Position numbers and translations under genes: made by a program | Source of the DNA: Rhizobiales bacterium Y(2018) | Lineage (GTDB): Bacteria; Pseudomonadota; Alphaproteobacteria; Rhizobiales; Aestuariivirgaceae | Direction of reading: 5' to 3' | Length of the DNA: 64,000 nucleotides | Assembly (NCBI GenBank): GCA_005502925.1 | Contig: SCPD01000001.1 | Span: 682,001-746,000 of the forward strand | Notes under the pieces: generated by a model | What the model was told of the DNA's origin: nothing | The model's database searches: none | The model's input: the letters and a program-made list of their open reading frames with translations, nothing else | Shown: in pieces, positions 8,658 to 29,193 of the stretch | Layout of the letters: every line of letters begins with the position of its first letter | Position numbering within the stretch: position 1 is the first letter of the stretch

Positions 8658-9772
8658 TATTTGGGCGGGCTCCGGCGCTTGGCCTCGCTGGGCTCAGGGA
8701 GCTTTTTCTGAGTCGGTATACCCAGATAGAGCGGACTTTTCAGATATTGCTCGATGGCGAAGCGGACCAGCACGCCGACCGCGGCGGCAAGCGGCACGGC
8801 GAGCAGAAGGCCGACGAAGCCGAAAAGATAGCCGAAGGCGAAAAGAGCGAACATCAGCCAGACGGGATGCAGGCCGATGCGGTTGCCGACCAGGTTGGGC
8901 GACAGGAAATTGCCCTCGATGAACTGGCCGCCGGCGAAGATGGCGATGATGATGATGATATGCGCCCAATCGGGCCAGAACTGGATGAGCGCCATGCCGA
9001 TGGCGAGAACGCCGCCGATGATCGAGCCGACGTAAGGAATGAAGCTTAGGAGCCCTGCCCCGAGCCCGATCAGCAGGCCGAAATTGAGCCCGGCGAAGGA
9101 CAGCGCCATGGCGTAGAAGACGCCGAGCAGAAGGCAGACGGTGCCCTGGCCGCGGATGAAGCCGGCCATGGCTTCATCGATCTGGGTGGCGAGGCGGCGG
9201 ACGGTCGTCAGATGATCGCGCGGCAGCCAGCCATCGACCTTTTCGACCATGCGGTCCCAGTCGTTCAGCATGTAGAAGGCGACGATCGGCGTGACGACCA
9301 GGAGCGAGATGACATTGACCAGCGCCAGGCTGCCGGACAGGATCGAGGTCAGGATCGCCGCCACCCAGCCGGCCGCCTTGCCGGCGAGATCGGACAGCGA
9401 AGCCGGCAGGTTGGTGCCCGAAGATGCCAGCATGTCCTTCAGCCATTGTGGCGCGAGCTCGTCGAAGAGCTTGACCAGCGCCTGCATGTAGCCTGGCAGA
9501 TTGGAGGAGAAGCGCGCGATCTGATCACCCAGCACCGGCAACAGCAGCACCAGGAGGATAACGATGACGAGAATGCTCGAAATGAGGATGAGCAGCGTCG
9601 CGGCAAGTCGCGGCAGGCCCAGACGCTCCAATGCGTCGGCAACGGGATCGAGGAAATAAGCCAGCACCAACCCGGCGATGAAAGGCAGCATGATATCGCC
9701 GAGGAGCCACAGAGCCAGGATGACCACCGCCAGCGCCACGGCCCAGAAGGTGAATTGCCGCTGCAATGTCAT
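8657..9772 (-). CDS. AI-2E family / PerM-type membrane exporter
   Basis: A 371-residue polytopic membrane protein with about eight hydrophobic segments, including an N-terminal pair (FWAVALAVVILALWLLGDIMLPFIAGLV begins this region), a long soluble stretch at about 100-150, and the family's Gly-rich end SFIPYVGSIIGGVLA. The family is described as transporting autoinducer-2 or acting as Na+/H+ exchangers; the substrate here is unknown. The start at 9772 gives an ATGA overlap with pgsA; a longer open frame upstream lies inside pgsA and was rejected. The stop overlaps the hdaA start. Confidence 0.85.
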   Translation of the reverse strand: MTLQRQFTFWAVALAVVILALWLLGDIMLPFIAGLVLAYFLDPVADALERLGLPRLAATLLILISSILVIVILLVLLLPVLGDQIARFSSNLPGYMQALVKLFDELAPQWLKDMLASSGTNLPASLSDLAGKAAGWVAAILTSILSGSLALVNVISLLVVTPIVAFYMLNDWDRMVEKVDGWLPRDHLTTVRRLATQIDEAMAGFIRGQGTVCLLLGVFYAMALSFAGLNFGLLIGLGAGLLSFIPYVGSIIGGVLAIGMALIQFWPDWAHIIIIIAIFAGGQFIEGNFLSPNLVGNRIGLHPVWLMFALFAFGYLFGFVGLLLAVPLAAAVGVLVRFAIEQYLKSPLYLGIPTQKKLPEPSEAKRRSPPK

Positions 9773-10356: not shown

Positions 10357-11481
10357 TTACAACGGCTGCAATACCCATGTCCCGCCCGCCTGCACCAGCC
10401 TGAGGCCACTTCCCGACAGAGCCTGCTGCAGATCCTGGACCGAGTCGACGAAAGCCAGCTGGATGACGGCCCCGTTCTCGGCGATGGTCGAGACATCGAC
10501 ACCGACGACACCGGGGGTGGCCATAAGCCGGGCGCGGATGCCGTTCCACTGATAGATGCCCGAAAACGGCACGGCGACCGGCATGGAGCGCGAGGCGCGC
10601 GATTCCTGCTGCTCGGCCGCGGCGCGGGCCTGAGCCTCGGCGGCGACCTTGAGGCGCACCGAACGCCATTTCTCGAGCATGACATCGTCGAACCGGCGCG
10701 CGGCGGCGGCGGCGGCTGTTTCGAGCGTCCCGTCCTCGGCGGTGTAAACCTTGTCGAAATTGATCTTTCCGAGCGGCGAATCGCCCTGCATCACGGCGCG
10801 GATCCCACCCGAAGGGTCCGGCTCGGCGATGGCGACGAGCACGGCCTTGGCCTCATAGCGGATCATCAGGCTCTCGAGCTTGATCGCATCGCCGGCGGCC
10901 ACCTCTTCCGGGCTGATGGCGGAGGTGTCCTGGAGGTCGCCCAGGGGCACGATGATCGGCACCAGCGACTGCTCGGCCTTGAGGTCGAGCCAGGCCTTGC
11001 GCCAGAGATTGTCTTCCCAGAGGACCAGCCCGTTCGGGCCCTTCCACAGCGGCAGGACGACCAGCGGCGGGGCCTGCTCCTCGACCACGTCGATACCATA
11101 ACGGCCGAACAGTTCCCGGATCTTGCCGGGCAGGAAGCGCACGGTGAGCTTGCCGATGTAACGGCCGGGGCCGGAGCGCTCCTCCTCGATACTCAGGGAA
11201 CGCAACATACGGCCGATATCGCGGGCATCCATGCCCTGAAGCCGCTTAGCGGCCTCGGGCGAGCCCAGCCTTTCGGCCAGCTGGTAAAAGGCTTTGACCT
11301 GGGCCTCGATGATGGCGCGGGTGCGGGCCGTGGCGGCGTCCTTGTCGGTGACGTCCACCTCCACGCCGGTGACCGAAAACAGGCCGGTTTCGACCGGGCC
11401 AACGGCCCAGGCTTTCAACGGCGCGGCGAGGATGAGGAAGGTCAGGAAGGCCCCGAGGAGGCCCCTGGATCGGCACGTCAT
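10357..11481 (-). CDS. Exported DUF2066 protein
   Basis: A 374-residue protein with a clear N-terminal signal peptide (basic MTCRSR, hydrophobic core, cleavage after AWA). The mature part begins with the conserved FSVTGVEVDVTDKDAATAR segment of DUF2066, and a second conserved block GIYQWNGIRARLMATPGVVGVDV lies near the C-terminus. The function of the family is unknown; it is usually found next to pgsA/perM/hdaA, as here. GGAG 8 nt before the ATG at 11481 supports this start over an ATG 14 codons further upstream. Confidence 0.8.
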   Translation of the reverse strand: MTCRSRGLLGAFLTFLILAAPLKAWAVGPVETGLFSVTGVEVDVTDKDAATARTRAIIEAQVKAFYQLAERLGSPEAAKRLQGMDARDIGRMLRSLSIEEERSGPGRYIGKLTVRFLPGKIRELFGRYGIDVVEEQAPPLVVLPLWKGPNGLVLWEDNLWRKAWLDLKAEQSLVPIIVPLGDLQDTSAISPEEVAAGDAIKLESLMIRYEAKAVLVAIAEPDPSGGIRAVMQGDSPLGKINFDKVYTAEDGTLETAAAAAARRFDDVMLEKWRSVRLKVAAEAQARAAAEQQESRASRSMPVAVPFSGIYQWNGIRARLMATPGVVGVDVSTIAENGAVIQLAFVDSVQDLQQALSGSGLRLVQAGGTWVLQPL

Positions 11482-15550: not shown

Positions 15551-17394
<1,844 letters not shown>

Positions 17395-17474
17395 CTATGG
17401 AGACCCAGCTCTGACCCGGAATGATGAAAAGGCGCCCTTGGGAGGAAGTGGTTGGCCCGAAGGCCGCAAGCGCC

Positions 17475-17605
17475 CGCACCGTCCCTACGCCAGTGTTAAC
17501 TGGATCAGGTTCAACGGGTCGCTACGCTGCTCAGGCCAGAAAGCCCTCGCCAGCAGCCTCTCAGCTCCTTGTCGGAGCCCCCCTGGTGAAGGCGTTCAGG
17601 GTGCG
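17475..17605 (-). promoter_or_regulatory. TPP (THI-box) riboswitch upstream of thiC
   Basis: Read on the minus strand, the leader contains the conserved CTGAGA (about 17558-17563) and the hallmark ACCCGTTGAACCTGATCC (about 17504-17521), followed by GTTAACACTGGCGTAGGGA. Closing stem P1 can form between CGCACC (17600-17605) and GGTGCG (17475-17480). Immediately 3' is GGCC-TTCG-GGCC (17454-17465), a UUCG tetraloop hairpin that may belong to the expression platform. There is no U-tract, so control at translation initiation of thiC is more likely than termination. Confidence 0.95.
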
Positions 17606-17652
17606 GTCCATGCGCCGATTTGTCAAGCCGATCGATTCTCATCTTATATTTG

Positions 17653-17700
17653 GCGCGTGATCGGACGGAAAACCGGTACCCACTTTTCCTGATCACGCGC
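17653..17700. repeat. Palindromic intergenic repeat, rhizobial type
   Basis: Perfect 10-bp arms GCGCGTGATC (17653-17662) and GATCACGCGC (17691-17700) flank a core containing AAAACCGGTACCCACTTTTCC. Cores of this type (AAACCGGT...ACTTTTCC) recur between genes of many Hyphomicrobiales. The right arm ends on the first base of the stop codon of the following minus-strand gene, so it may double as its transcription end. Confidence 0.65.
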
Positions 17701-19472
17701 TAGCGGCTGATCGCATAGTGGCTGCGGCGCGGATCGGCGCCCGAGCCGAGGACGCGGCGCCCATCTACGGGCGTCTGCATGTCGACGGACAGCGCGACAC
17801 CGCTCGCGTCGAACTCGTAATCGGGCCAGAGATGAATGCGGTGACCACGCTTGGCGAGGCCTGCTCTGACCTTGTCGGAGATACGCGCCTCGACGCTCAG
17901 CCGGCCACGATCATGGAAATGCGGGAAGAAGGAATCCGGGAAGCTCAGGCAGGTCACGCGCGCCGCCTCGACCGACTGCTGCGGCGACATTCCGCGATCG
18001 ACGACATTGAGGAAGGCTTGCAGGATGCCTTGCGGAATTACATCACCACCGCTCGCCGACAAGGCCATCGCTCTGGCTTCCCCCTCTTCAAGGCTCAGCG
18101 CGAGTGCCGGCGCCGGCGTCAAACGCGGCCGTTTGCCCGGCCCCAATACCGCTGGATGCCTGGCATCGAGCCGCGACTGGACACCACGCGGCGAGACGAT
18201 GATGCCGAGCCCCGGCACGATCGGATTGCCGTCAATAGTGTCGCTGGCCGAGCAGCTGAAGACATTGCCCTCGCCATCGATGATGGTGAAATTGGTCGTG
18301 TCGCGCCTTTTCCCGCGTTTGGCGCCAGTCGAAACAGGAAGATCGAGTGTCGGAAGATCCGGCAGCGCCTTCTTCAGCCGAACCGTGGCGCGCAGCCGCG
18401 CCACGTGGTCGTCGGACAGCAGCTCTTCAATTTCGACATTCGCGTCGCCATAGAACTTCTCACGGTCCGAAAAGCCCAGCTTCATCGCTTCGACGAGAAG
18501 ATGGATATAGGTCTCCTCATTCGTGGCATGCGCCGCGAGATCGAAGCCGGCGAGCACGGACAGCGTCTGCAAGATCACCGGCGCCTGGCTGTAGGTCCCG
18601 CCGGTGAACATGCGCCAGCCGTGATAGTCACAATTCTTGGCCGGCGTCACCTCATTGCGGAACGCGGCCAGGTCGGCATGTGTCATCCAGCCGCCGCCCT
18701 GCCCAACCCAGTCGACGATCCTTTCGGCCACCTCGCCTTCGTAAAAGGCTTTGCGCACCGCTTCGAGCGCTTCTGTCCGTTTTGCGCCACGCTCGGCCGC
18801 CATCAGCCGCTGGAGAAGCCGCGCCAGATCGGTCTGCACGAGGCGATCGCCTTCGCGCGGAGGCCTTCCGTCCGGCCAATAGATGGAAGCTGAGCTCTCC
18901 CAGTTCTTAAAAGTGGCGCCCATCAATTCATAAGCGAGCGCCGTGCGCCGATCGAGCACGAAGCCCTCCTCGGCATAACGCAGAGCTGGCGCCGCAACCT
19001 CGCCGAAAGACCATGTGCCGAAGCGGGACAGCGCCGTCACCCAGGCGTCGAGCGCTGCCGGCACGACCGAACAGGCCGCCCCCAGCGGCATGTCGCCCTT
19101 GTAACGGTCGAGATAGACGTCCAGCGTCACCTCACGGCTCCAGGATCCGACGCCGCTGATCGACCAGACCTCATCGGAGCCCGCAAGGCGCAACACGATC
19201 GGCGCGACGCCGCCCAGATTGCACATGTCGGCCTGGATAACATTGCTCGCAAGACCGGCGGCGACACCGGCATCGATCGCCGTACCGCCCCGTTCGAGGA
19301 CATCGGCTGCCACCATGGAGACCAGCGGGTGGCCGGCGACCACCGAATAATTCTCGCCGATCAAAGTGGGGCGCATCGATTCCGGCGGTGGAAAGATATT
19401 GGGAACCGGCGACGTGCTGTTGCGCATGCCGCCCGCGGCTTCTTCGGGCGCACTGTTCTTCGGATCGCTCAT
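17700..19472 (-). CDS. Gamma-glutamyltransferase-family Ntn hydrolase
   Basis: A 590-residue Ntn-hydrolase precursor expected to self-cleave before Thr392 (motif GKRRDTTNFTIIDGEGN). Classical GGTs have TTH at this place; here it is TTN. The oxyanion serine pair (SSMSP in classical enzymes) corresponds to RLTPAP at about 450-455 and is missing. No signal peptide is seen, so the enzyme is probably cytosolic, unlike periplasmic GGT. These points suggest an acylase or amidohydrolase on a different gamma-linked substrate. It is the last gene of the seven-gene minus-strand operon, 14 nt after the SDR gene. Confidence 0.82.
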   Translation of the reverse strand: MSDPKNSAPEEAAGGMRNSTSPVPNIFPPPESMRPTLIGENYSVVAGHPLVSMVAADVLERGGTAIDAGVAAGLASNVIQADMCNLGGVAPIVLRLAGSDEVWSISGVGSWSREVTLDVYLDRYKGDMPLGAACSVVPAALDAWVTALSRFGTWSFGEVAAPALRYAEEGFVLDRRTALAYELMGATFKNWESSASIYWPDGRPPREGDRLVQTDLARLLQRLMAAERGAKRTEALEAVRKAFYEGEVAERIVDWVGQGGGWMTHADLAAFRNEVTPAKNCDYHGWRMFTGGTYSQAPVILQTLSVLAGFDLAAHATNEETYIHLLVEAMKLGFSDREKFYGDANVEIEELLSDDHVARLRATVRLKKALPDLPTLDLPVSTGAKRGKRRDTTNFTIIDGEGNVFSCSASDTIDGNPIVPGLGIIVSPRGVQSRLDARHPAVLGPGKRPRLTPAPALALSLEEGEARAMALSASGGDVIPQGILQAFLNVVDRGMSPQQSVEAARVTCLSFPDSFFPHFHDRGRLSVEARISDKVRAGLAKRGHRIHLWPDYEFDASGVALSVDMQTPVDGRRVLGSGADPRRSHYAISR

Positions 19473-19486
19473 CGCTCTTCTCCCTG

Positions 19487-20254
19487 CTAGGCACTCAACA
19501 TCGCGCCGGCATCGACCCTGATCGTCGTGCCGGTGATGGCGGAGCTCGCCGGCGACACGAGGTGGAGGCAGAGATTGGCAACCTCTTTCGGATCAACCAG
19601 CCGGGTCGCCGCACCGCTCTTCGCCATGCTGTGCCAGATCTCCGCCACATCGGCGCCGGTGCGCTCGGCGATACTCCTCGCGACCTCACGCAGCATCGGG
19701 CTGTCGACATTACCGGGGCACACCGCATTGGCCCGGATGCCGTGCGCGCTGAGCTCAGCCGCGAAACTCTCGGTGAAGCCGATCAGAGCGAATTTGGTGG
19801 CGCAATAGATCGAAGCGCCGGCTTCGCCGCGCAGGCCCGCTGTGGAGGACAGGAACACGAAGGCGCCGCCCTTGCCGCGCGCGATCATGGGCTTCGCGAA
19901 GGCGGCGGCCGTATGGAAGGCGCCGTCGAGATTGACCGCCATCACGCGACGATAGACAGACCAGTCGATGTCGACCACGGCCCCATCGGCATTGAGACCC
20001 GCGGCATAGACCAGGCTGTCGACATCGCCGATCTCGGCCGCGAGCGCCGTCATGGCTTGCGGATCGGTGACATCACACGCTTTGCTGTGATGCGCACCCG
20101 CCAGGCCAGCAATGGCGCGGGCCGCCTGTTCTTCACTGCGGTCGAGCGACCAGACGGTGGCGCCGGCATGGGCCAGCGCCTTGACGCAGTCGGCTCCGAT
20201 GGTGCCCCCGCCACCGACGACCACCGCGATATGCGCATCTCCAAGCTTGCTCAT
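19487..20254 (-). CDS. Short-chain dehydrogenase/reductase
   Basis: A 255-residue classical SDR. The cofactor loop is VVVGGGGTIGADC near residue 12, the NAG-like segment is YAAGLNADG, and the active site is SSTAGLRGEAGASIYCATK with Tyr and Lys spaced YxxxK. An acidic residue after strand 2 (SLDRSEEQ) suggests NAD(H) preference. It overlaps the E1-beta gene by 4 nt. Next to E1 genes an SDR often acts on acetoin, diacetyl or a related keto product, but the substrate cannot be fixed. Confidence 0.88.
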   Translation of the reverse strand: MSKLGDAHIAVVVGGGGTIGADCVKALAHAGATVWSLDRSEEQAARAIAGLAGAHHSKACDVTDPQAMTALAAEIGDVDSLVYAAGLNADGAVVDIDWSVYRRVMAVNLDGAFHTAAAFAKPMIARGKGGAFVFLSSTAGLRGEAGASIYCATKFALIGFTESFAAELSAHGIRANAVCPGNVDSPMLREVARSIAERTGADVAEIWHSMAKSGAATRLVDPKEVANLCLHLVSPASSAITGTTIRVDAGAMLSA

Positions 20255-21276
20255 GATGCCGCCGCCATCTCACGCAAGACTCGCGCGATGGAAGCCGGAC
20301 CCGGCACCAGCACTTCTTCCAAGGACAGAGCAGCCGGAATGGGCACATCCGGTACGGCGTGACGGCGCAACTGGCGCAAGGAGGAAGGTCCGAGCCGCTC
20401 CAGGACGCGCACGATGATCTCGGCCGAGAGTCCGAAGCTCAGATAGTCTTCGTCCACGACCAGAAGACGGCCGGTCTTCGCCGCCGACTGGGCGACCGTC
20501 TCGACATCCAAGGGAACGATCGAGCGCAGATCGATGAGCTCGACATCGATCCCCTCGCCTGCGACCTGGGCGGCTGCCTCCATCGCATATTCGACGCTGG
20601 CGCTCAGCGTAACGAGTGTGATGTCGCCGCCCTTGCGCACGATATCGGCCTTGCCGATCGGCGTGACGAAGGGTTCGGCCGGCACATCGCCGGCATTGAG
20701 GAATTCCTTGGCCTGCTTGAGCAGCAGGCCCTTGTGCTCGATGAAGATCACCGGATTGTCGGAGCGGATGGCGGCGGCCATCAGACCCTTATGGTCACGC
20801 GCCGAGCTCGGCGCCACGACCTGCATACCCGGCAGATGTGCGAAGGTCGCCCACAGGCACTGGGAATGCTGCGCCGCCGAGCCGATATTGCCGCCTGCCG
20901 TCTTGATCACCATCGGCATCTTGACCCGCCCCCCGGACATATAGGGGATCTTGGCCATCGCATTGTAGACCTGTTCGAGACAGACGCCAATGAAGTCGAC
21001 GAACATGATCTCGACGACCGGCCTGAGGCCCGCCATCGCCATGCCCACGCCCATGCCGGTGAAGGACATTTCCGAGATCGGCGTGTCGCGCACGCGCATC
21101 GGGCCGAAACGGTCGAGCAGATTGCGGCTCGAGCCGAAGACGCCGCCGCAGCGGCCGACATCCTCGCCCAGGATCACGACGCGCTCGTCGCACTCCATTT
21201 CCTGAAACAGGCTTTCGGCGACCGCCTGCGACGCATTGATCTTGCGCATATTCGCTGCCATGTCGGCCGTCATCAC
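20251..21276 (-). CDS. 2-oxoacid / acetoin dehydrogenase E1 component, beta subunit
   Basis: A 341-residue transketolase-like E1-beta. Conserved pieces are VVILGEDVGRCGGVFG near the N-terminus (TPP-activating Glu), DTPISEMSFTGMGVGMAMAG, FVDFIGVCLEQVYN, and EVDLRS-like IDVELIDLRSIVPLD at the C-terminal domain. The size fits AcoB/PdhB. It is coupled to E1-alpha (ATGA). No lipoyl E2 or E3 gene lies in the operon, so it either shares those of another complex or passes its product to an artificial or unknown acceptor. Confidence 0.9.
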   Translation of the reverse strand: MMTADMAANMRKINASQAVAESLFQEMECDERVVILGEDVGRCGGVFGSSRNLLDRFGPMRVRDTPISEMSFTGMGVGMAMAGLRPVVEIMFVDFIGVCLEQVYNAMAKIPYMSGGRVKMPMVIKTAGGNIGSAAQHSQCLWATFAHLPGMQVVAPSSARDHKGLMAAAIRSDNPVIFIEHKGLLLKQAKEFLNAGDVPAEPFVTPIGKADIVRKGGDITLVTLSASVEYAMEAAAQVAGEGIDVELIDLRSIVPLDVETVAQSAAKTGRLLVVDEDYLSFGLSAEIIVRVLERLGPSSLRQLRRHAVPDVPIPAALSLEEVLVPGPASIARVLREMAAAS

Positions 21277-22229
21277 ACCACCTCCGCAAAGACATGATCC
21301 ATGGCGCCGGCCGGATCAGGCATCGCATCCTTACGGATATCCGCCAGCATGGCGCTCATTTCGCCCTTGGCTGCCGCGACGATCTGATCGAGCTCGCCCT
21401 CGGCGGCGCCGCGTTCGACCAGCATGCGCCGATACCGAGCGATCGGGTCCATCTCGGCGCGCATGCGCTGCTTCTCGGCACGCTCGCGGTAATTGTCATG
21501 ATCGCCCTCATAATGACCGCGATGGCGATAACATGTGGCTTCGAGCAGCGACGGGCCGCCGCCTTTTCGCGTATGTTTCGCAACCTCGGCAAAGGCTTTC
21601 ACGACTTCCTCGACATCGGTGCCGTCGACACGCCGTCCGAGCGCCCCATAGGCCGCAGCGCGCTCGGCAATTCCCGGCGTCGCGGTGACGTCGGAGAAGC
21701 GGACCGAAATCGCATATTGGTTGTTCTCGACGAGGCAGACCAGCGGCAGGCCCCAGGCCGCCGCCATGTTCAGGCATTCATGGAAGGTGCCGTGATTGGT
21801 CGCACCGTCGCCGCAGATCCCGACGGCGACATAAGGCAGGCCCTTCAGCTTGAAATTATAGGCGTAGCCCAAAGCGACGGGCAGCGAGGCGCCGACGATG
21901 CCGGTCGCGGAGAAATTGCGCTCGGGGTCGAAGGGATGCATGTGGCCGCCGCGGCCGCGGCAAAGGCCCGTCTCCTTCTCGAAGATTTCGGCCATGAGGG
22001 CGCGCGGCGGAACGCCTTTAGCCAGCGCGTGATAATGATTGCGGTGCGTGCTCACCACGGCGTCATGGGGCGTCAGGGATTGCGCCATGGCCGCGCCGAT
22101 CGCCTCCTGGCCGATGCTGGTATGGAGCTCGCCATGGATCTCGAAGGTCGGCACGCCTTCGATGCAGGCCTCATCGAAAGCCCGCAGCCGGACCATGGTC
22201 CGAAACAGATTGATCTCGTTCAGCTTCAT
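21273..22229 (-). CDS. 2-oxoacid / acetoin dehydrogenase E1 component, alpha subunit
   Basis: A 318-residue TPP-binding E1-alpha. The TPP motif GDGATNHGTFHECLNMAA, ending in VENNQYAIS, is near residues 137-170, and the substrate-side segment STHRNHYHALAKG and GRGGHMH are conserved. No N-terminal E2-recognition extension is obvious. Size and motifs resemble AcoA of acetoin dehydrogenase as well as pyruvate E1-alpha. It overlaps E1-beta and the VOC gene by 4 nt each. Confidence 0.9.
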   Translation of the reverse strand: MKLNEINLFRTMVRLRAFDEACIEGVPTFEIHGELHTSIGQEAIGAAMAQSLTPHDAVVSTHRNHYHALAKGVPPRALMAEIFEKETGLCRGRGGHMHPFDPERNFSATGIVGASLPVALGYAYNFKLKGLPYVAVGICGDGATNHGTFHECLNMAAAWGLPLVCLVENNQYAISVRFSDVTATPGIAERAAAYGALGRRVDGTDVEEVVKAFAEVAKHTRKGGGPSLLEATCYRHRGHYEGDHDNYRERAEKQRMRAEMDPIARYRRMLVERGAAEGELDQIVAAAKGEMSAMLADIRKDAMPDPAGAMDHVFAEVV

Positions 22230-22657
22230 GATTCTCTCATCTCAAGCAGTTCGAAAAAGGATCCGCCGGGCGCCCGGCAATAAGTAGAGCGCCCTTCCGG
22301 AAAGACGGTGATGCTGCCGATCGGCTCGGCATTCGCCGCTACCACCTCACGCAAGGCGTCGTCGAGTTCGTCCACCACGAAGCCGACGTGACCGCAGCCC
22401 GCCGCCAATGGCAATGGCTGGGCTGCCAGTGCGTGGCCGCTGAATTCGATGAGCTCCAGCCGCGGCCCGCCATCGGTGCGCGCCAGTTGAGCAAGATGGC
22501 ACGAGAGCGTTTCCACGCCCGTCATGCTGCGGATTTCCCTTGCCATGTCCCTTTCGATGAAAGCGACCTCATAGCCGAAGGCCGCCGCATAGAAGGCGAT
22601 GGAGAGATCGATCTCCGAAACCGCGAGCGAGACATGATCCAGGGGTTTGAGCTTCAT
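22226..22657 (-). CDS. VOC-superfamily metalloprotein (glyoxalase-like)
   Basis: A 143-residue protein with two beta-alpha-beta-beta-beta modules. Candidate metal ligands are His8 (LDHVSLAVS), Glu68 or Glu71 (LELIEFSG), His90 (GHVGFVVD) and Glu136 (GGSFFELLE), the HEHE arrangement of glyoxalase I, methylmalonyl-CoA epimerase and related lyases. The substrate is unknown. The adjacent CobW-type GTPase could supply its metal. 4-nt overlaps on both sides place it firmly in the operon. Confidence 0.82.
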   Translation of the reverse strand: MKLKPLDHVSLAVSEIDLSIAFYAAAFGYEVAFIERDMAREIRSMTGVETLSCHLAQLARTDGGPRLELIEFSGHALAAQPLPLAAGCGHVGFVVDELDDALREVVAANAEPIGSITVFPEGRSTYCRAPGGSFFELLEMRES

Positions 22658-23658
22658 CGAACACCTTCAACAGCACGCACCATCACATCGCGAAGATCGC
22701 AGCGGATATCGTCACCGGCGCTGGTTGCAAAGATCGCAACGAGGACGCGCGGCGCCGTGCGGGGAACGGAGTCGAGAAAGCGGGGCGGCGCGACCAGGTG
22801 CTGGACCGCGTGGAAACTCACCGGCCGCTCGTCGCCGGCGACATCGGCCATGGCCTTGAGGCGCAGCAGCGACTCGCCCTGGCGGCGCGCAATATCCTCG
22901 ATGCCGGCCTGGAAGGCACGCAGATCGACCGGACTGGAAAGGCGGAGGACAACGCTGTCGAAAGCTGCAGCATGCCCGGTGTCGGCGGACATCGAATGCT
23001 GATGAACGGCCGGCTCCATGTCGAAAAGCTGTGTCGCGAGCTGGACATCCGTCGCCGCGGCCTCGATCGGAACACACGACAGACGGCGCAGCTCGTTCAT
23101 CAGCCGGCTCCTGCCGGCCTCATCCGTCAGATCGAGCTTGGTGACCAGCAGACGATCGGCAAGCGCCAGCTGCGCCCGCGCCGTTTCATGCCGCCATATC
23201 TGGCCAAGGCCCAGTACGGCATCGATCACCGTCACGAGACCGGTCAGGCGATATCGCGACAGGCGCAGCGGATCACTCACGAAGGCCTGCAATATCTTGG
23301 TGGGATGCGCGAGTCCGCTGGTTTCGACAATGACGCGAGCGAAGGGTGGAATTCTACCGAGGGCGACTTTGTCCTGCAAACTGCGCAGAGCGCGCGCGAG
23401 ATCGCCTTGCGCCTGGCAGCACAGGCAGCCGCCCGGCAGGACGACGATATTCTCGTCCACGCTTTCGATCAGGAGGTGATCGAGGCCGATCTCGCCGAAT
23501 TCATTGACGATGACCGCCGTGTCGGCCGCCTGCGGCAGAGCGAGCAGTCGTCTGATCAAGCTGGTCTTGCCGCTGCCCAGGAAGCCGGTGAGTACCGTCA
23601 CTGGAACGGTCTGCTCCGGAACGAGATCGAGCGTGCGCGGATCAGGAAGTGCTGTCAT
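22654..23658 (-). CDS. CobW/COG0523-family metal-chaperone GTPase
   Basis: A 334-residue G3E GTPase. Walker A GFLGSGKTS is at 25-33 and the metal-binding GCLCCQ (Cys78, 80, 81) at 77-82; the middle segment VIDAVLGL and VTKLDLTDEAG supply the G-motifs. A C-terminal CobW_C-like domain follows. Members load Zn, Co or Fe into client enzymes. In this operon the likely clients are the VOC protein or the M20 amidohydrolase. This is inference from position. Confidence 0.88.
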   Translation of the reverse strand: MTALPDPRTLDLVPEQTVPVTVLTGFLGSGKTSLIRRLLALPQAADTAVIVNEFGEIGLDHLLIESVDENIVVLPGGCLCCQAQGDLARALRSLQDKVALGRIPPFARVIVETSGLAHPTKILQAFVSDPLRLSRYRLTGLVTVIDAVLGLGQIWRHETARAQLALADRLLVTKLDLTDEAGRSRLMNELRRLSCVPIEAAATDVQLATQLFDMEPAVHQHSMSADTGHAAAFDSVVLRLSSPVDLRAFQAGIEDIARRQGESLLRLKAMADVAGDERPVSFHAVQHLVAPPRFLDSVPRTAPRVLVAIFATSAGDDIRCDLRDVMVRAVEGVR

Positions 23659-25034
23659 TCCACCCAGCTCGCATTCCAGAAGGCGTCGGGGCGATGGCGC
23701 ATCGTCTCGAGGGCGCCGAACATCGGCTGGCTGAGCGTGACGCCCCTGGTGCGCTCACCGAGTTCAGCTTTCGCCGCCTGGATGATCGCCGGATCGGCGA
23801 GCAGCCGCAGCGTGGCGGCGGCGAGTGCTTCGGACGCCATCAAGGGTCCCGGGTGGCTCGCCTCGTGGCCCGCCAGCGCCGTCAGCGCCCAATTGTGCAA
23901 GGGGACTTGATCGGGGAACGCCCAGTTGACCCGCCCAAGCGGGATCCGCCAGCTGACCTCGCCATCATCCTGCCCGTAAGGGTCCAGCCCTTCGCTATAC
24001 AGGCCCAGCCCCTCATCGAGCCGGAAGCCGCCATCCGGACGGCAGGTCTTGGCGAGTGCGCGCATGAAGTCGCGGCCCTCCTCCGTCCAGCGCGGCGGTC
24101 CGACCGTCACGAGGGCGGCGTGAAGCGTCTCGGCCAGGGTATCGTTCGCCAGATAGCCACGCGTGCCGGCGATGAACTGATGGCGAAAGGCGACGCCCGT
24201 CATTTCGGCGGCCCGCGCCGCGACACCGATGGCGAAGTCGAACACTTCGCGGGCGCGCTCGAAACTCTCATGCCGTGCCGTGAGCCACAGCCGCGCCTCG
24301 TCTGGCGTGACATTGGGAATATGCCCCGCAACACGCAGCACATGCTCGACCGAGGTGTCGGGGAAATGATGGGCGCGCAACCGTTCCAGCGACTGCACGG
24401 CGAGTTCGGCGGCATCGAGCGCATTACGCCGGCGGGTGCCGCCGCCATGGCCGGATTCGCCGAGGAAGACGACTTCGCCATTGAGCACCGACTGGCAGGG
24501 GCGCGAGATCGCGCCGTTCTGATAGTCGCCATGCGAGGTGAGGATGGCGTCGATGCCGTCGAAGATGCCGAGCCCGAGCATCGCCACCTTGCCCCAGACG
24601 ATCTCTTCGGCGGGCGTTCCGAACACGACGATCTCGCCGGCGAGCCCCGCCTCCGCCGCCGCCAGCGCGGCGGCGATCGCCGCACCGCAATTGGCCGGCC
24701 CGATGAGATTGTGACCGCAAGCATGGCCGGCGGGATGTCCCCGTCGCTTTCGCTCGGCTACGGCATCATTGTCGGTGCCGGGCAGCGCATCATATTCGGC
24801 GAGAAGCGCAACTTTGAGCCCCCCTTTGCCACGCCGCGCCGTGAAGGCGGTGGGCAGGCCGCCGACACCCCGCTCGACCTCGAAACCGAAGTTTTCCAAC
24901 CAGGCGCAGAGCGTGGCTTGCGCCTTGAATTCCATGTTGCCGAGTTCGGGTGTCGCCCACAATTCATTGAATTTACTGACGATCTCCGCCTGGAGAGGAA
25001 GCCAGTGCCGCCTGGCGATCGCGCTGTGATTCAT
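23655..25034 (-). CDS. M20-family amidohydrolase, AbgB-like
   Basis: A 459-residue dizinc hydrolase of the M20D type that cleaves aminoacyl amides, such as p-aminobenzoyl-glutamate or indoleacetyl-amino acids. Metal motifs are LLAEYDALPG, GHACGHNL and TPAEE; a dimerisation domain follows (ESGHGGGTRRRNALDA). The first gene of the operon; start choice is between ATGs at 25043 and 25034, neither with a good SD. The longer open frame upstream runs through the operator. It likely frees an amino acid from the imported or internal conjugate. Confidence 0.87.
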   Translation of the reverse strand: MNHSAIARRHWLPLQAEIVSKFNELWATPELGNMEFKAQATLCAWLENFGFEVERGVGGLPTAFTARRGKGGLKVALLAEYDALPGTDNDAVAERKRRGHPAGHACGHNLIGPANCGAAIAAALAAAEAGLAGEIVVFGTPAEEIVWGKVAMLGLGIFDGIDAILTSHGDYQNGAISRPCQSVLNGEVVFLGESGHGGGTRRRNALDAAELAVQSLERLRAHHFPDTSVEHVLRVAGHIPNVTPDEARLWLTARHESFERAREVFDFAIGVAARAAEMTGVAFRHQFIAGTRGYLANDTLAETLHAALVTVGPPRWTEEGRDFMRALAKTCRPDGGFRLDEGLGLYSEGLDPYGQDDGEVSWRIPLGRVNWAFPDQVPLHNWALTALAGHEASHPGPLMASEALAAATLRLLADPAIIQAAKAELGERTRGVTLSQPMFGALETMRHRPDAFWNASWVE

Positions 25035-25054
25035 TCTGGTCATCTGTAAACTGT

Positions 25055-25066
25055 TGACAGTTGTCA
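25055..25066. promoter_or_regulatory. Candidate GntR operator in divergent promoter
   Basis: TGACA-GT-TGTCA is a perfect 5-bp inverted repeat with a 2-nt centre. It lies 12 nt before the M20 start region and 69 nt before the likely GntR start, between the two divergent transcripts. GntR/FCD proteins bind short palindromes of this form, so autoregulation and control of both arms of the island are plausible. Confidence 0.5.
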
Positions 25067-25134
25067 GCTTAGTGTGTTTCATTTCCGGAGCGCTGTCAAA
25101 CCACATTCGGCGGCCAGCCGCGGAGAAAATTGAC

Positions 25135-25827
25135 TTGGAGCAGAGCTTTCACGCCGTCCCGACGCTGACTCTGGTCACCCAGGTGAAGGAGCAGATTCAG
25201 CACGCCATCACGACCGGCGAATTGCTGCCGAACCAGCGTCTGGTCGAAGGCGAGATCGCCCAGAAGCTCGGCGTCAGCCGGGGGCCCGTTCGCGAAGCCG
25301 CGCGCCTGCTCGAGCAGAGCGGTCTTTTGATATCCCTGCCCCGCCGCGGCTTCTTCGTGCGCCAGTTCGAGGAACGCGAGATCAAAGATCTCTACGAGCT
25401 GCGCGAATGGATCGAAGCCGCCGCGGTCGAAGCCGCGGTGAAGCGCGCCACGCCCGAGCAGCATGAGATGCTGCGCGTCACTCACAAGAATCTAATGGCC
25501 CGCGCCCGCTCCGGCCAGCAATCCGAGCTGATAGAGGCGATCATCGAGTTCCACCGCTCGATCTGCACGCTGTCGGGCAATATGCGGCTGCTGCGTCTCT
25601 TCGACGAGATCGCCATCGAAGTGAGGCAGATACTCTCGGTTCTCGGTGTGAAGCTCGACGAGACGGGCTACCCCGCCGAAGCCCAGGAATCGCTCCTCGA
25701 CGCCATCGTGAACAAGGACAAGAAACGCGCCGCCGCCGAGATCCGCAAGCTCGTCGCGCAGGCCGGCAAAGAGGTCATGGAAAACTATCGCAGGCGCCAA
25801 GCAGCAGGAAGCAAGGCGCCGAAGTGA
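25135..25827 (+). CDS. GntR-family regulator, FCD subgroup
   Basis: About 230 residues. The winged helix reads TQVKEQIQHAITTGELLPNQRLVEGEIAQKLGVSRGPVREAAR in pieces, and the all-helical FCD effector domain (LYELREWIEAAAVEAAV, later EFHRSICTLSGN) follows. The start is uncertain: no ATG precedes the domain. A TTG at 25135 has GGAG 9 nt upstream and gives the usual family length; a TTG at 25054 lies inside the palindrome and is less likely. It divides the catabolic operon from the importer genes and probably represses both until an intermediate binds. Confidence 0.88.
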   Translation: MEQSFHAVPTLTLVTQVKEQIQHAITTGELLPNQRLVEGEIAQKLGVSRGPVREAARLLEQSGLLISLPRRGFFVRQFEEREIKDLYELREWIEAAAVEAAVKRATPEQHEMLRVTHKNLMARARSGQQSELIEAIIEFHRSICTLSGNMRLLRLFDEIAIEVRQILSVLGVKLDETGYPAEAQESLLDAIVNKDKKRAAAEIRKLVAQAGKEVMENYRRRQAAGSKAPK

Positions 25828-25860
25828 ATCCCGGGACAATTCCGGGTGGTCGCAACGGCT

Positions 25861-25879
25861 CGTCCCGTCAAAAGGGACG
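25861..25879 (+). terminator. Leader hairpin between GntR gene and importer
   Basis: CGTCCC (25861-25866) and GGGACG (25874-25879) form a 6-bp stem with loop GTCAAAA. It sits between the GntR stop and the SD of the binding-protein gene. There is no U-run; it may be a weak terminator or a stabilising 5' structure. Confidence 0.4.
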
Positions 25880-25901
25880 GCACAGGGAGGAGAAGACAAG
25901 T

Positions 25902-26717
25902 ATGAGTAGTCGCCGATTGGCACTGGGAGCGGCCGGCATTGCGCTGTGCGGATTCCTGGCCACTGCCGCCCAGGCGGATATCGCAGCGCCGCAGAAAATC
26001 AAAGCGGCCGGCAAGATCGTCTTCTGCACCGAGCTCGCCTATCCGCCGTGGGAAATGCTCAATCCCGAAACGCAGGCGCCGGAAGGTTTCGATATCGACA
26101 TCGCCGCGGCGCTCGCCAAGACGATGGGGGTCACCTCCGAGCACAAGAACATCTCCTTCGACGGCCTCATCCCGGCTTTGCAGGCGGGTCAGTGCGATGC
26201 CATCATTTCAGGCCTCGCCGACAAGCCGGAACGGCGCGAGGCGGTCGACTTCGTGAACTATGCGGTGTCGGGCAACGCGCTGATCACGCGCGCCGAAAAC
26301 CCGGCGACCTTCAAGACGCTCGAGGACCTTTCCGGTCTCAAAGTCTCGGTCGCCGTCGGATCGGCGCTCGAGGGTGAGTTGAAGAAAGCCAGCGACGCGC
26401 TGAAAGCGGCGGGCAAGCCCGAGATCAACATCCTGTCGCTGCAAAGCGGCACCGATGCCTTCCAGCAGCTGACGGCGGGCCTGGCCGATGTCTATTTCGG
26501 CTCGACCGACCAGGCCGGCTATTTCAACAAGCAGAAACCCGGCCTCCTGAAGCTCGCCAGCCCGCAGCTCTTCTCGCTGACGATCGGGCTCGCGACGCTC
26601 AAGAAAGACAAGGACCTTCATGACGCCTTCGACGGCGGCTTGAAGGAGCTCAAGAGCTCAGGCGAGTACAAGAAGATCCTCGCCAATTGGGGCTTCGAGG
26701 CCATGGGCCTCGAGTAA
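25902..26717 (+). CDS. Polar-amino-acid ABC importer, binding protein
   Basis: A 271-residue periplasmic protein of the SBP_bac_3 family. A signal peptide ends near QAD (MSSRRLALGAAG, then hydrophobic core). The mature part has the hallmark GKIVFCTELAYPPWEM, GFDIDIAAALAKTMG and DAIISGLADKPERREAVDF segments. GGGAGGAG about 12 nt before the ATG fixes the start, and an earlier in-frame ATG (25824) overlapping the regulator was rejected. A strong hairpin downstream probably keeps its level above that of the permease. Confidence 0.93.
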   Translation: MSSRRLALGAAGIALCGFLATAAQADIAAPQKIKAAGKIVFCTELAYPPWEMLNPETQAPEGFDIDIAAALAKTMGVTSEHKNISFDGLIPALQAGQCDAIISGLADKPERREAVDFVNYAVSGNALITRAENPATFKTLEDLSGLKVSVAVGSALEGELKKASDALKAAGKPEINILSLQSGTDAFQQLTAGLADVYFGSTDQAGYFNKQKPGLLKLASPQLFSLTIGLATLKKDKDLHDAFDGGLKELKSSGEYKKILANWGFEAMGLE

Positions 26718-26728
26718 CCCAGACTTGC

Positions 26729-26753
26729 GGTCGGGAGCCACTGGTTCCCGGCC
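26729..26753 (+). terminator. Intercistronic hairpin, likely attenuating terminator
   Basis: GG-T-CGGGAGCC (26729-26739), loop ACT, then GGTTCCCG-G-CC (26743-26753): an 11-bp stem with two G-U wobbles, followed by GATTTTCCC. Placed between binding-protein and permease genes, it would give more binding protein than membrane components. Confidence 0.6.
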
Positions 26754-26780
26754 GATTTTCCCGTCAGTGAGACATAAGCC

Positions 26781-27557
26781 ATGTCCGGCGACTTCAATAT
26801 CGACACTGCCTTCTTCCTCAAATATCTGTTCAATCCGCCGGCCATCATCTGGAAGGGGCTGTGGCTGACGATCTGGATTTCCGTCGTGGCCCAGGCGCTC
26901 GGCGTCGCCATCGGCCTTCTCATCGCATTGTGCATCCGGTCGAAGCGCGCCTGGCTGCGCGGCTTCGGCAAATTCTATGTGTGGGTCTGGCGCGGTACGC
27001 CGCTCCTCGTCCAGCTGGTTCTGATCTATACCGGCGTCGCGGCGGCGGGCTTCTACAAATATCCCGATATTCAGATCGGCCCCTTCACGCTCACCGGCCC
27101 GCTCCAGGCCGCCCTCATCACGCTTTCGCTCAACGAAGCCGCCTATATGGCGGAAATTTTCCGGGCCGCCTTGTCATCGATCGACAAAGGTCAGTTCGAT
27201 GCCGCGCGCGCTTTGGGCATGCGGCCCATCACGGCGATGCGCTGGATCATCCTGCCGCAAGCGGCGCGGATGGTGGTGCCGCCGCTCGGCAATGAATTCA
27301 CCTTGATGATCAAAGGCACGTCGCTCCTCGCCATTCTCGGCATCCGCGAATTGTTCGGCACCCTCCAGCAGCTCAATGCCGCGACCTTCCGCACCTTCGA
27401 GCTCTTCATCATCGCCGCCATCTGGTATCTGATCCTGACGACGATCATGGGCTTCGTGCAGAAGCGCCTCGAAGCCCATTACGGGCGTTATGACCAGCCG
27501 ACTGCCGACAGCAAGGCCAAACCAGGCTTGCGCAGCCTGTTCTCGGGGCAGCGCTAG
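26781..27557 (+). CDS. Polar-amino-acid ABC importer, permease
   Basis: A 258-residue inner-membrane protein of the HisM/GlnP group with about five transmembrane helices. It carries [14 protein letters not shown] near residue 70 and the EAA loop [24 protein letters not shown] single permease gene is present, so it would act as a homodimer. It lies 1 nt before the ATPase start and was read from the first ATG of the open frame. Confidence 0.93.
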
Positions 27558-27558
27558 A

Positions 27559-28335
27559 ATGGCCGCGACCGACACAACTCCCCTCGTCGCGCTGCGCGAC
27601 ATCCGCAAATCCTATGGTGATGTCGAAGTTCTGCGCGGCGTCTCCTTCGATGTCCATCGCGGTGAGGTCGTCTGCCTGATCGGGCCCTCGGGGTCCGGCA
27701 AGACCACGCTGGTGCGCTGCATCAACCATCTGGAGAAGATCCAGTCCGGCCGCATCACCGTCGATGGCGAGCTTATCGGCTATCGCGAGCATAAAGGCCG
27801 GATCATCGAGGATTCGGAAACGCGCATCGCCGACCGGCGGCAGAAGATCGGCATGGTCTTCCAGCGCTTCAATCTCTTCCCGCATCTCACCGCGCTCGAA
27901 AACATCACTGTCGGCCCTGTCCGCGTCCAGGGGCGCGATCTGAAGACAGTGACAGCGGAAGCGCTAGAGCTCCTGGCGCGCGTGAAGCTCGCGGACCGGG
28001 CCAGCCACTATCCCTCCCAGCTCTCGGGCGGCCAGCAGCAGCGTGTGGCGATCGCCCGGGCGCTCGCCATGAAGCCGGCCGTCATGCTTTTCGACGAGCC
28101 GACCAGCGCGCTCGACCCTGAGACCGTCGGCGAGGTGCTGGAAGTCATGAAGGAGCTCGCGCAAGCGGGCACCACCATGATTGTCGTGACCCATGAGATG
28201 GGTTTCGCCCGCGACGTTGCGAACCGTATCGTCATGATGGATCAGGGTGCGGTGGTCGAAATCGGAAGCGCCGAGCAGATCTTCACTAATCCGCAGCAGG
28301 AGCGGACCAGGGCCTTCTTCAAGGCGATGCGCTGA
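27559..28335 (+). CDS. Polar-amino-acid ABC importer, ATPase
   Basis: A 258-residue ATPase with Walker [11 protein letters not shown]-loop [12 protein letters not shown], signature [15 protein letters not shown], Walker [13 protein letters not shown] and H-loop VTHEMG. The start MAATDTT is 1 nt after the permease stop; 23 further upstream codons are inside the permease and rejected. Together with the two preceding genes it forms a complete importer. Confidence 0.94.
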
Positions 28336-28354
28336 CGGCTCTATGCTCGTCGCC

Positions 28355-28460
28355 CTGAGGTGCGAGCGAAGCGAGCCTCGAAGGGTCTCGTGCAGCAGAT
28401 GCGCTCTATCCTGATGGACGCTTCGAGGCCCGGCTGCGCCGGGCACCTCAGCGTGAGGTG
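28355..28460. repeat. Long palindromic intergenic repeat
   Basis: Nested inverted arms: CTGAGGTGC (28355-28363) with GCACCTCAG (28443-28451), and GCCTCGAAG (28375-28383) with CTTCGAGGC (28421-28429). A third small hairpin CACCTCA/TGAGGTG follows at 28444-28460. The element lies between two convergent genes and resembles the dispersed CTGAGGTGC...CGAAG elements common in alphaproteobacteria. It may also end both transcripts. Confidence 0.7.
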
Positions 28461-28479
28461 CTGGAGAAGGTATTCCGCA

Positions 28480-29193
28480 CTAGAGGAACACGTCGAGATC
28501 CGGCTTCTCCATATCGGCGCGCAGCTCATCCTGCCATTCCTTGAGCAGCGCCTTGCGGCGCTTGGGATAACGGTCCTTGAGGATGTCGACCTGGCCGATG
28601 CGGTCGGTACGGAAATGGCGGAAGGCGGTGCGCAATTCGCACCAGGCGATGATGTTGCGGGTCGCCTCGTAATAGACGATGCCGATCGGCCAGATGGTGC
28701 GCTCGGTATAGCGGTCGATCTCGTCGCGATACTGGATCGACACTTTGCGGCTCTCGCGGATCGCGCTGCGCAAGGCGGCGACGTCGACCGCATCGACGGT
28801 GCGACCGTCGCGCGGCGCCACGACGAGCCCCGCATCATACAGGAACGGCCTCAGCCCCTCGGGGAGCACCGCGCCGATCTTGGCGACCGAATCGCGCGCC
28901 GCCCGCGACAGCTGGCCATCGCCGCGCCGGGTCACCCAGCGCAGGCCGAGCATGACCGCCTCGAGCTCGTCGGCCGTGAACATCAAGGGCGGCATGTCAT
29001 AGCCCTCGCCCAGCACATAGCCGATGCCGGCCTCGCCTCTAATCGGCACGCCTTGGCCGACCAGCGAGTTGATGTCGCGATAGACGGTGCGCAGCGACAC
29101 TTCCAGCTCTTCGGCCATGGCATCGCCGGTCACCGGGCGCCGGTGGCGGCGCAGGATCTGCAGTACTTGAAGAAGTCGGTCAGCGCGTCTCAT
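28480..29193 (-). CDS. YafY/WYL-type transcriptional regulator
   Basis: A 237-residue regulator. An HTH_11 winged helix fills residues 1-60 (LLQVLQILRRHRRPVTG, LEVSLRTVYRDINSLV). A WYL-like ligand domain follows, with the conserved AWCELRTAFRHFRTDRI near residue 190; the WYL triplet itself is changed to AWC. Such proteins sense small ligands or nucleic acids. The candidate target is the small gene or promoter region beyond 29193. GTG/ATG choice is not an issue, as the first Met opens the domain. Confidence 0.87.
   Translation of the reverse strand: MRRADRLLQVLQILRRHRRPVTGDAMAEELEVSLRTVYRDINSLVGQGVPIRGEAGIGYVLGEGYDMPPLMFTADELEAVMLGLRWVTRRGDGQLSRAARDSVAKIGAVLPEGLRPFLYDAGLVVAPRDGRTVDAVDVAALRSAIRESRKVSIQYRDEIDRYTERTIWPIGIVYYEATRNIIAWCELRTAFRHFRTDRIGQVDILKDRYPKRRKALLKEWQDELRADMEKPDLDVFL

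Follow-up and report, generated by a model that had tools for sequence, protein, structure and literature searches.

Which compound is handled by an eleven-gene island that combines a GGT-family protein, a two-gene E1 enzyme, an M20 hydrolase and an amino-acid-type importer, and do these genes form one unit at all? The island lies at positions 17700-28335 of a 64,000-nucleotide stretch (the window, meaning the whole stretch analysed) from Rhizobiales bacterium Y(2018), on contig C11 (SCPD01000001.1) of a 7.1-Mb genome with 99.43% completeness; the closest named relative encountered was Aestuariivirga sp. YIM B02566. Seven minus-strand genes, in the order M20, CobW, VOC, E1-alpha, E1-beta, SDR and GGT, diverge from a GntR/FCD regulator gene followed by the genes of an importer. 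Judged by gene order and sequence comparison, the island is a real unit, and it is rare in the genomes sampled. As a tentative reading, to which we give slightly less than an even chance, it would be a dedicated, locally regulated unit that imports and degrades an N-substituted (amide-linked) amino-acid-like compound.

The called open reading frames (ORFs) were assigned to families by hidden Markov models (Pfam, NCBIfam), and ORF and family calls agreed with the positions and identities that an earlier reading of the letters alone (the sequence-only reading) had given for the seven minus-strand genes. The junctions were also as described there: neighbouring genes overlap by 4 nt in five cases, and GGT and SDR are 14 nt apart. 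The whole 11-gene order was found again in two other genomes. Locus L001 belongs to Aestuariivirga sp. YIM B02566 and its island proteins are 90-99.6% identical to those of the window; it is weak evidence alone because it comes from a near relative that shares the thiC neighbour. Locus L002, from Cucumibacter marinus, showed identities of 47-82%, namely CobW 47%, VOC 60%, GntR 65%, SDR 65%, M20 69%, ATPase 72%, GGT 74%, E1-alpha 75%, binding protein 76%, permease 77% and E1-beta 82%. The outer neighbours of the island in L002 are unlike those of the window, and therefore the conserved block ends where the sequence-only reading had placed its limits.

Relatives were sought by scanning genome contigs with patterns from a single protein, which reaches close relatives only, and by further searches of 385 genomes of the class, 398 of the phylum, 297 of the order of Cucumibacter, and plasmids. 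The M20 profile matched 16 of the 385 class genomes at E 1e-60, and its close group was made up of four of them (own genome, G165, G338 and G261; E <=4.9e-179, next match 2.5e-80). At E 1e-90 the own genome stood alone among the 398 phylum genomes. E1-beta at E 1e-90 was present in 6 of the 385 class genomes, own counted, and E1-alpha at E 1e-105 in one of the 297, Cucumibacter itself. In 72,556 plasmid records, M20 and E1-beta matches at 60% identity were absent.

Local regulation would fall to the GntR/FCD regulator (25135-25827, plus strand, ORF called from 25054; PF00392, PF07729), which would control both divergent operons through one palindrome. The called frames of M20 (23655-25106) and GntR overlap, therefore at least one of them starts later. 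The true start of M20, judged from relatives, is probably near 25031-25040, and that of GntR is a probable TTG at 25135 on comparison with L002; these starts would leave about 94 bp of divergent DNA. Within the divergent region lies the palindrome AACTGTTGACAGTT (25049-25062, no strand), a candidate GntR operator, and the form AAYTGTTGACARTT is common to the window, L001 and L002. At 0-1 mismatches, one copy of AAYTGTTGACARTT was found in the own genome (G000) and one in Cucumibacter (G385). The earlier claim of one regulated unit was supported by the kept gene order and by the conservation of the palindrome, which is single-copy in both genomes tested. An overlapping sequence, TGACANNTGTCA, occurred once in the window against none in 100 shuffles and is not conserved in L002. 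A promoter and terminator scan of 17300-28600 returned sites no commoner than in shuffles.

The importer genes lie on the plus strand and code for a family-3 solute-binding protein (SBP_bac_3, 25902-26717; PF00497, E 4.5e-33), a single polar-amino-acid-type (PAAT) ABC permease (BPD_transp_1, 26781-27557; PF00528 and TIGR01726) and an ABC ATPase (27559-28335), the last read from the sequence, with homologues at the corresponding position of the L001 and L002 loci. The divergence of the seven genes from the regulator and importer was as previously described, while the description of the importer as complete holds only if its one permease pairs with itself. The binding-protein pocket was aligned with E. 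coli ArgT and HisJ (LAO numbering). The carboxylate-binding Arg77 is kept as R111 and Tyr14 as Y47, and Asp11 is replaced by Glu44, Ser72 by Ala106, Asp161 by Ser201 and Gln122 by Leu156; these residues are identical in the window, L001 and L002. As far as the available portions of PMC5740067 and PMC4192606 go, Ser72 and Asp161 of LAO hold the amino group of the ligand, NocT (Gly97 and Ser207 at those positions) binds nopaline and octopine and not arginine, and LAO with Q122A gains octopine binding. Because the carboxylate Arg is kept and the alpha-amino contacts are lost, as in NocT, the ligand would be an N-substituted, carboxylate-bearing compound. Such a binding protein, with the Arg and lacking the Ser/Asp pair, would feed the importer. 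The proposed import of a conjugated amino-acid-like compound was thus supported by the residues when set against the table in the accessible part of PMC5740067.

Cleavage of the imported amide is assigned to the M20 metallohydrolase (23655-25106 as called, minus strand; TIGR01891, 160.6 bits, cut-off 153.75). Residues D106, C130, H132, E167, E168, H192 and H404, which we take to be metal-site and catalytic residues, were unchanged throughout an alignment of 16 sequences, 9 from the clade and 7 from the 12 distant loci (the motif filter found no ORF in the other 5, which were dropped). With these residues intact, the protein stands as the hydrolase candidate that the sequence-only reading had proposed. 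It forms its own clade. The best solved matches by profile were HmrA and PM20D2 (Xaa-Arg / beta-alanyl-lysine dipeptidase), and the predicted fold matched the same two at about 22-23% identity, a sanity check only at a model confidence (pLDDT) of 65.8 (moderate). That the closest fold matches include a beta-alanyl-lysine dipeptidase suits a pantothenate-type catabolism, in which M20 splits a hydroxyacyl-beta-amino-acid amide, the SDR oxidises the hydroxy acid and E1 takes the 2-oxo acid. The enzyme classes fit this scheme, but it leaves the GGT-like enzyme and the VOC protein without a role and has no direct sequence evidence; we regard it as very improbable.

In the amide-compound reading, M20 would probably be loaded with metal by the product of the adjacent gene, a COG0523/CobW GTPase (22654-23658, minus strand; PF02492 E 3e-42, PF07683). 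Its Walker A, CxCC, ETSG and TKLD motifs are all present, the motif set of COG0523/G3E. CobW adjoins M20 in 8 of the 9 clade loci (window, L001-L004, L021, L022 and L023), and none of the 12 more distant M20 loci, taken with flanks of about 1.5 kb, contained a protein matching the window CobW at E 1e-8. M20 and CobW are thus a probable enzyme-metallochaperone pair, with metal delivery predicted from sequence. The main text of the 2009 COG0523 survey (PMC2770081), so far as available, mentions no amidohydrolase, peptidase, aminoacylase, carboxypeptidase or deacylase; it names a Zur-linked amidase and states that more than half of the members may serve unknown proteins.

The GGT-like gene (17700-19472, minus strand; G_glu_transpept PF01019, E 4e-90) had been read as an enzyme for gamma-linked amides. 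Its nucleophile T392 and G475-G476 align with T391 and G483-G484 of E. coli GGT, and Ser410 stands at the T409 position. The E. coli residues R114, N411, Q430, D433, S462 and S463 are presumably the gamma-glutamyl contacts, and all six are replaced (V108, D411, R429, Q432, L451, T452), identically in L001 and L002. The protein scored 251.5 bits, under the NCBIfam gamma-glutamyltransferase cut-off of 357.85. The gamma-glutamyl function was rejected on these contact residues, and the label is probably wrong. In the original proposal the importer brings in a gamma-glutamyl conjugate, whose gamma-glutamyl group is taken off or passed on by the GGT-like enzyme, and M20 acts as a deacylase on a second bond. 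For it speak the Pfam placement of the gene in the GGT family and two hints of gamma-glutamylation in relatives: a glutamine-synthetase-like gene near the VOC-E1 genes of locus L038, and gamma-glutamyl-GABA-hydrolase-family and glutamine-synthetase-family genes some 5-7 kb from a related E1 in Rhodococcus. Against the six replacements and the low family score, this account appears quite improbable. A pyrazine/acetoin analogy drawn from the Rhodococcus neighbourhood was set aside, as none of the literature matches listed was in support.

The closest solved protein to the GGT-like protein instead appears, from its alignment, to be of LmbA type. Entry 6j3a was the best solved match with 198 bits, against 136 bits for E. 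coli GGT, and its aligned D420-T421 has the numbering reported for LmbA2991, from which we infer that 6j3a is LmbA2991; the literature search found no publication naming the entry. The residue before the nucleophile Thr392 is Asp391, giving the Asp-Thr cleavage site of the LmbA type. In the text available from PMC5519988, LmbA-type proteins have an Asp-Thr autoproteolysis junction, and that source and PMC4780272, equally in part, describe them as breaking a C-C bond and freeing oxalate. A Pseudoroseomonas protein (L044) is a full-length relative of 6j3a with 585 bits; with 198 bits, the window protein is therefore a cousin, not an orthologue, of 6j3a. The predicted model of the window protein was unusable (pLDDT 29.7). 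The L044 homologue lies on a plasmid (7625-13773), with an FCD regulator gene next to it and an M20 gene about 3 kb away. One of the 72,556 plasmid records matched the GGT-like protein at 60-80% identity.

The E1 pair consists of E1-alpha (21273-22229, minus strand; thiamine diphosphate (ThDP)-binding half; PF00676, E 4e-67) and E1-beta (20251-21276, minus strand; pyrimidine-binding half of the ThDP enzyme; PF02779 and PF02780, with tree placement), so that both domains of the 2-oxoacid dehydrogenase component are present. E1-alpha is 75% identical to that of L002 and 63% to that of L038. The reported absence of E2 and E3 was confirmed among the neighbours of the window operon and of L002, where neighbours were read by eye (for E3, in this way only). 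The own genome holds twelve E1_dh matches, nine near full length, and for all eight of the other near-full-length E1-alpha genes a Biotin_lipoyl match lies no more than about 3 kb away. The window E1-alpha is without a lipoyl match within 40 kb, the nearest on its contig being about 44 kb off. A dedicated lipoyl partner was not found in three carrier genomes (own, Cucumibacter and G163), the search in Cucumibacter and G163 being made with one 76-aa query. The lipoyl matches in these genomes fall within long frames, except for one that belongs to another E1 cluster. Two candidates in the own genome were discarded: a free 78-aa protein on contig C5, which by eye resembles a biotin carrier and has biotin-carboxylase-like and 5-oxoprolinase-like genes as neighbours, and one on C33, which is part of another E1 cluster.

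In trees of 16 loci, in which some ORFs (among them the E1-beta of L038 and that of L028) begin at the first possible start and carry excess N-terminal sequence, both E1 subunits grouped with L038 (support 1.000) inside a wider clade supported at 0.975 in the alpha tree and 1.000 in the beta tree. The wider clade includes pairs followed by a 76-94-aa lipoyl-like protein recognised by sequence (L039-L042), and L045, annotated with a lipoyl protein and E2. The L040 lipoyl-like protein as query retrieved E2 lipoyl domains. These relatives, together with four 2-oxoacid_dh (E2) matches and more lipoyl proteins in the own genome, favour an ordinary oxidative 2-oxo-acid or acetoin dehydrogenase whose E2 and E3 are encoded elsewhere through gene scatter. 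Against it, no lipoyl partner evidently reserved for the island pair was found in the three carrier genomes, and the local absence of E2 is maintained in L002. We treat this account, which is compatible with the amide-compound reading, as a substantial though lesser possibility; as to the catalysis itself, a borrowed E2 or lipoyl-free operation is about evenly balanced.

The free lipoyl-like genes lie directly after E1-alpha/E1-beta at 10730-11014 (L039), 10825-11055 (L040), 9287-9517 (L041) and 10720-10950 (L042); those of L040-L042 are near glycine-cleavage-like genes (by eye), and no catalytic E2 was seen in the stretches examined of L039-L042. The own genome also has, on contig C20 (L027, 1794-9241), a second E1-alpha/E1-beta/E2 set, after which come a VOC-like gene and a polar-amino-acid-type importer (by eye), an arrangement that parallels the island.

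The remaining enzymes are an SDR oxidoreductase (19487-20254, minus strand; PF13561/PF00106), 65% identical to that of L002, and a VOC/glyoxalase-fold enzyme (22226-22657, minus strand; PF00903). The SDR carries YxxxK and a Gly-rich motif, which we take as SDR motifs, and an Asp after beta-2, which presumably indicates NAD. In the alignment of window, L001, L002 and L038, four His/Glu candidate metal ligands of the VOC protein are kept in all four loci. A scheme can be drawn from these parts. Once M20 has cut the amide, one hydrolysis product would carry or gain a carbonyl through SDR oxidation, VOC isomerisation or epimerisation. The E1 pair with ThDP would then cleave the C-C bond beside that carbonyl, either without lipoyl transfer or with a borrowed E2, and the GGT-family Ntn-hydrolase would use Thr392 to split a keto-acyl C-N or C-C bond, not a gamma-glutamyl one. 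In this scheme, the passage through a keto intermediate and the sequence of the reactions are both tentative. The stronger version, an undescribed route in which M20 and its own CobW cut the amide and a lipoyl-free E1 lyase and a C-C-breaking LmbA-like Ntn-hydrolase dismantle the keto compound, we consider distinctly unlikely. The novelty is in the combination of known enzyme kinds. To our knowledge there is no earlier catabolic use of the C-C chemistry of LmbA-type GGT-family proteins. A literature search covering few subscription journals, and aimed only in part at gene combinations of this kind, turned up no publication on the gene set, in keeping with the remark that the combination is not a described pathway.

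Other genomes show the parts of the island in different company. Locus L038 has VOC-E1-alpha-E1-beta with isochorismatase-family, cyclase-family and glutamine-synthetase-like genes, the last scoring under family cut-offs. A Rhizobium plasmid (L043, 11289-13359) has a same-clade M20 adjoining an isochorismatase-family gene, with a metallo-beta-lactamase-fold gene and a polyamine-type importer. M20-CobW adjoins a RidA-family gene and a single-chain ThDP-enzyme gene in L004, and lies near GbdR-like regulator, LcdH-like and CaiD-like genes in L021. These contexts point to general amide or amine catabolism, as far as neighbouring genes can tell, and not to a single substrate. The three L021 genes that would suggest a carnitine link are under NCBIfam equivalog cut-offs, and genes like them were not recognised in the island.

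Several observations weigh against, or qualify, the case for one dedicated amide-degrading unit. In L003, L004 and L021-L023, M20-CobW is found with neither VOC nor GGT and with no E1 of the island clade (the E1-E2 set of L021 belongs to another clade, and the SDR genes of L022 and L023 show a likeness of only about 30-34%). The 10.4-kb contig L038, in turn, has VOC-E1 and no M20. The two halves may therefore act in different steps or be linked only loosely. The clade member in L043 lacks CobW. The CobW proteins of M20 loci did not form one co-evolving clade in a tree of 18 sequences (21 loci chosen; three without a match were omitted, as were the weakest Pfam matches); this could mean repeated origins of the pairing or a tree that is too deep. 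The reversed-sequence control for AAYTGTTGACARTT matched once in the own genome and not at all in Cucumibacter; because a single match alone could be chance, the evidence for the palindrome is its position and conservation. The available text of PMC5740067 reports that OccJ N202D binds octopine and arginine as wild type does, and given this the Asp-to-Ser change alone is insufficient proof of an N-substituted ligand. Unlike NocT and OccJ, the island binding protein does not carry a full opine signature: it has Ala106, Ala126, Ala155, Leu156 and Ser201, of which the Ser only matches NocT, where the same portion of PMC5740067 gives Ser91-Asn111-Thr163-Ala164-Asn202 for OccJ and Gly97-Met117-Ser169-His170-Ser207 for NocT.

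The separations, including that of M20 in L043, favour two modules on one promoter region, with M20-CobW and the importer salvaging amides and VOC-E1-SDR-GGT acting on some unrelated compound. L002, however, keeps the halves fused in the same order and with the same palindrome, and other ThDP-enzyme genes lie near M20-CobW in L004 and L021; we judge this division unlikely. If the reading as a single amide-degrading unit is true, the island provides a COG0523 chaperone with a candidate partner enzyme, is a compact setting in which to ask if an E1-alpha/beta pair can function with no E2 at all, and gives an example of a wrong 'gamma-glutamyltransferase' label in a catabolic operon. On the minimal reading only, it is one further unassigned catabolic operon.

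Between the island and thiC lies a thiamine pyrophosphate (TPP) riboswitch (17464-17594, minus strand, 66 bits), the sole match in the window at the Rfam gathering threshold. A functional tie to thiC was rejected, as thiC carries this riboswitch of its own and the 19.6 kb examined of L002 gave no ThiC match, although the thiC neighbour is present in L001 too.

Compared with known systems, the island binding protein resembles the opine binders NocT and OccJ in retaining the carboxylate Arg and losing the amino-group contacts. Its M20 shares the fold and the seven checked metal and catalytic residues with E. coli AbgB of the AbgA/AbgB p-aminobenzoyl-glutamate hydrolase, but is 29% identical over 445 columns with many differing positions, has the clade signature GQDDGEVSW where AbgB has STDVGDVSW, and is partnered by CobW instead of AbgA/AbgT. 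In the match to PM20D2 and HmrA, the best sequence-profile stretch ends near position 280 of 481. As in COG0523 chaperones with a partner gene, such as Nha3 with nitrile hydratase, the GTPase gene adjoins a metalloenzyme gene. Both E1 subunits fall in the same wider clade as AcoA/AcoB-like pairs with a free lipoyl-domain protein, whereas the island pair has no adjoining lipoyl or E2 gene and a VOC gene precedes E1-alpha. With LmbA, Ant6 and LmbA2991 the GGT-like protein has the Asp-Thr junction in common, and its Arg at the E. coli Q430 position aligns with an Arg in 6j3a; other pocket positions differ, and its gene sits in a catabolic-looking operon and not in an antibiotic cluster.

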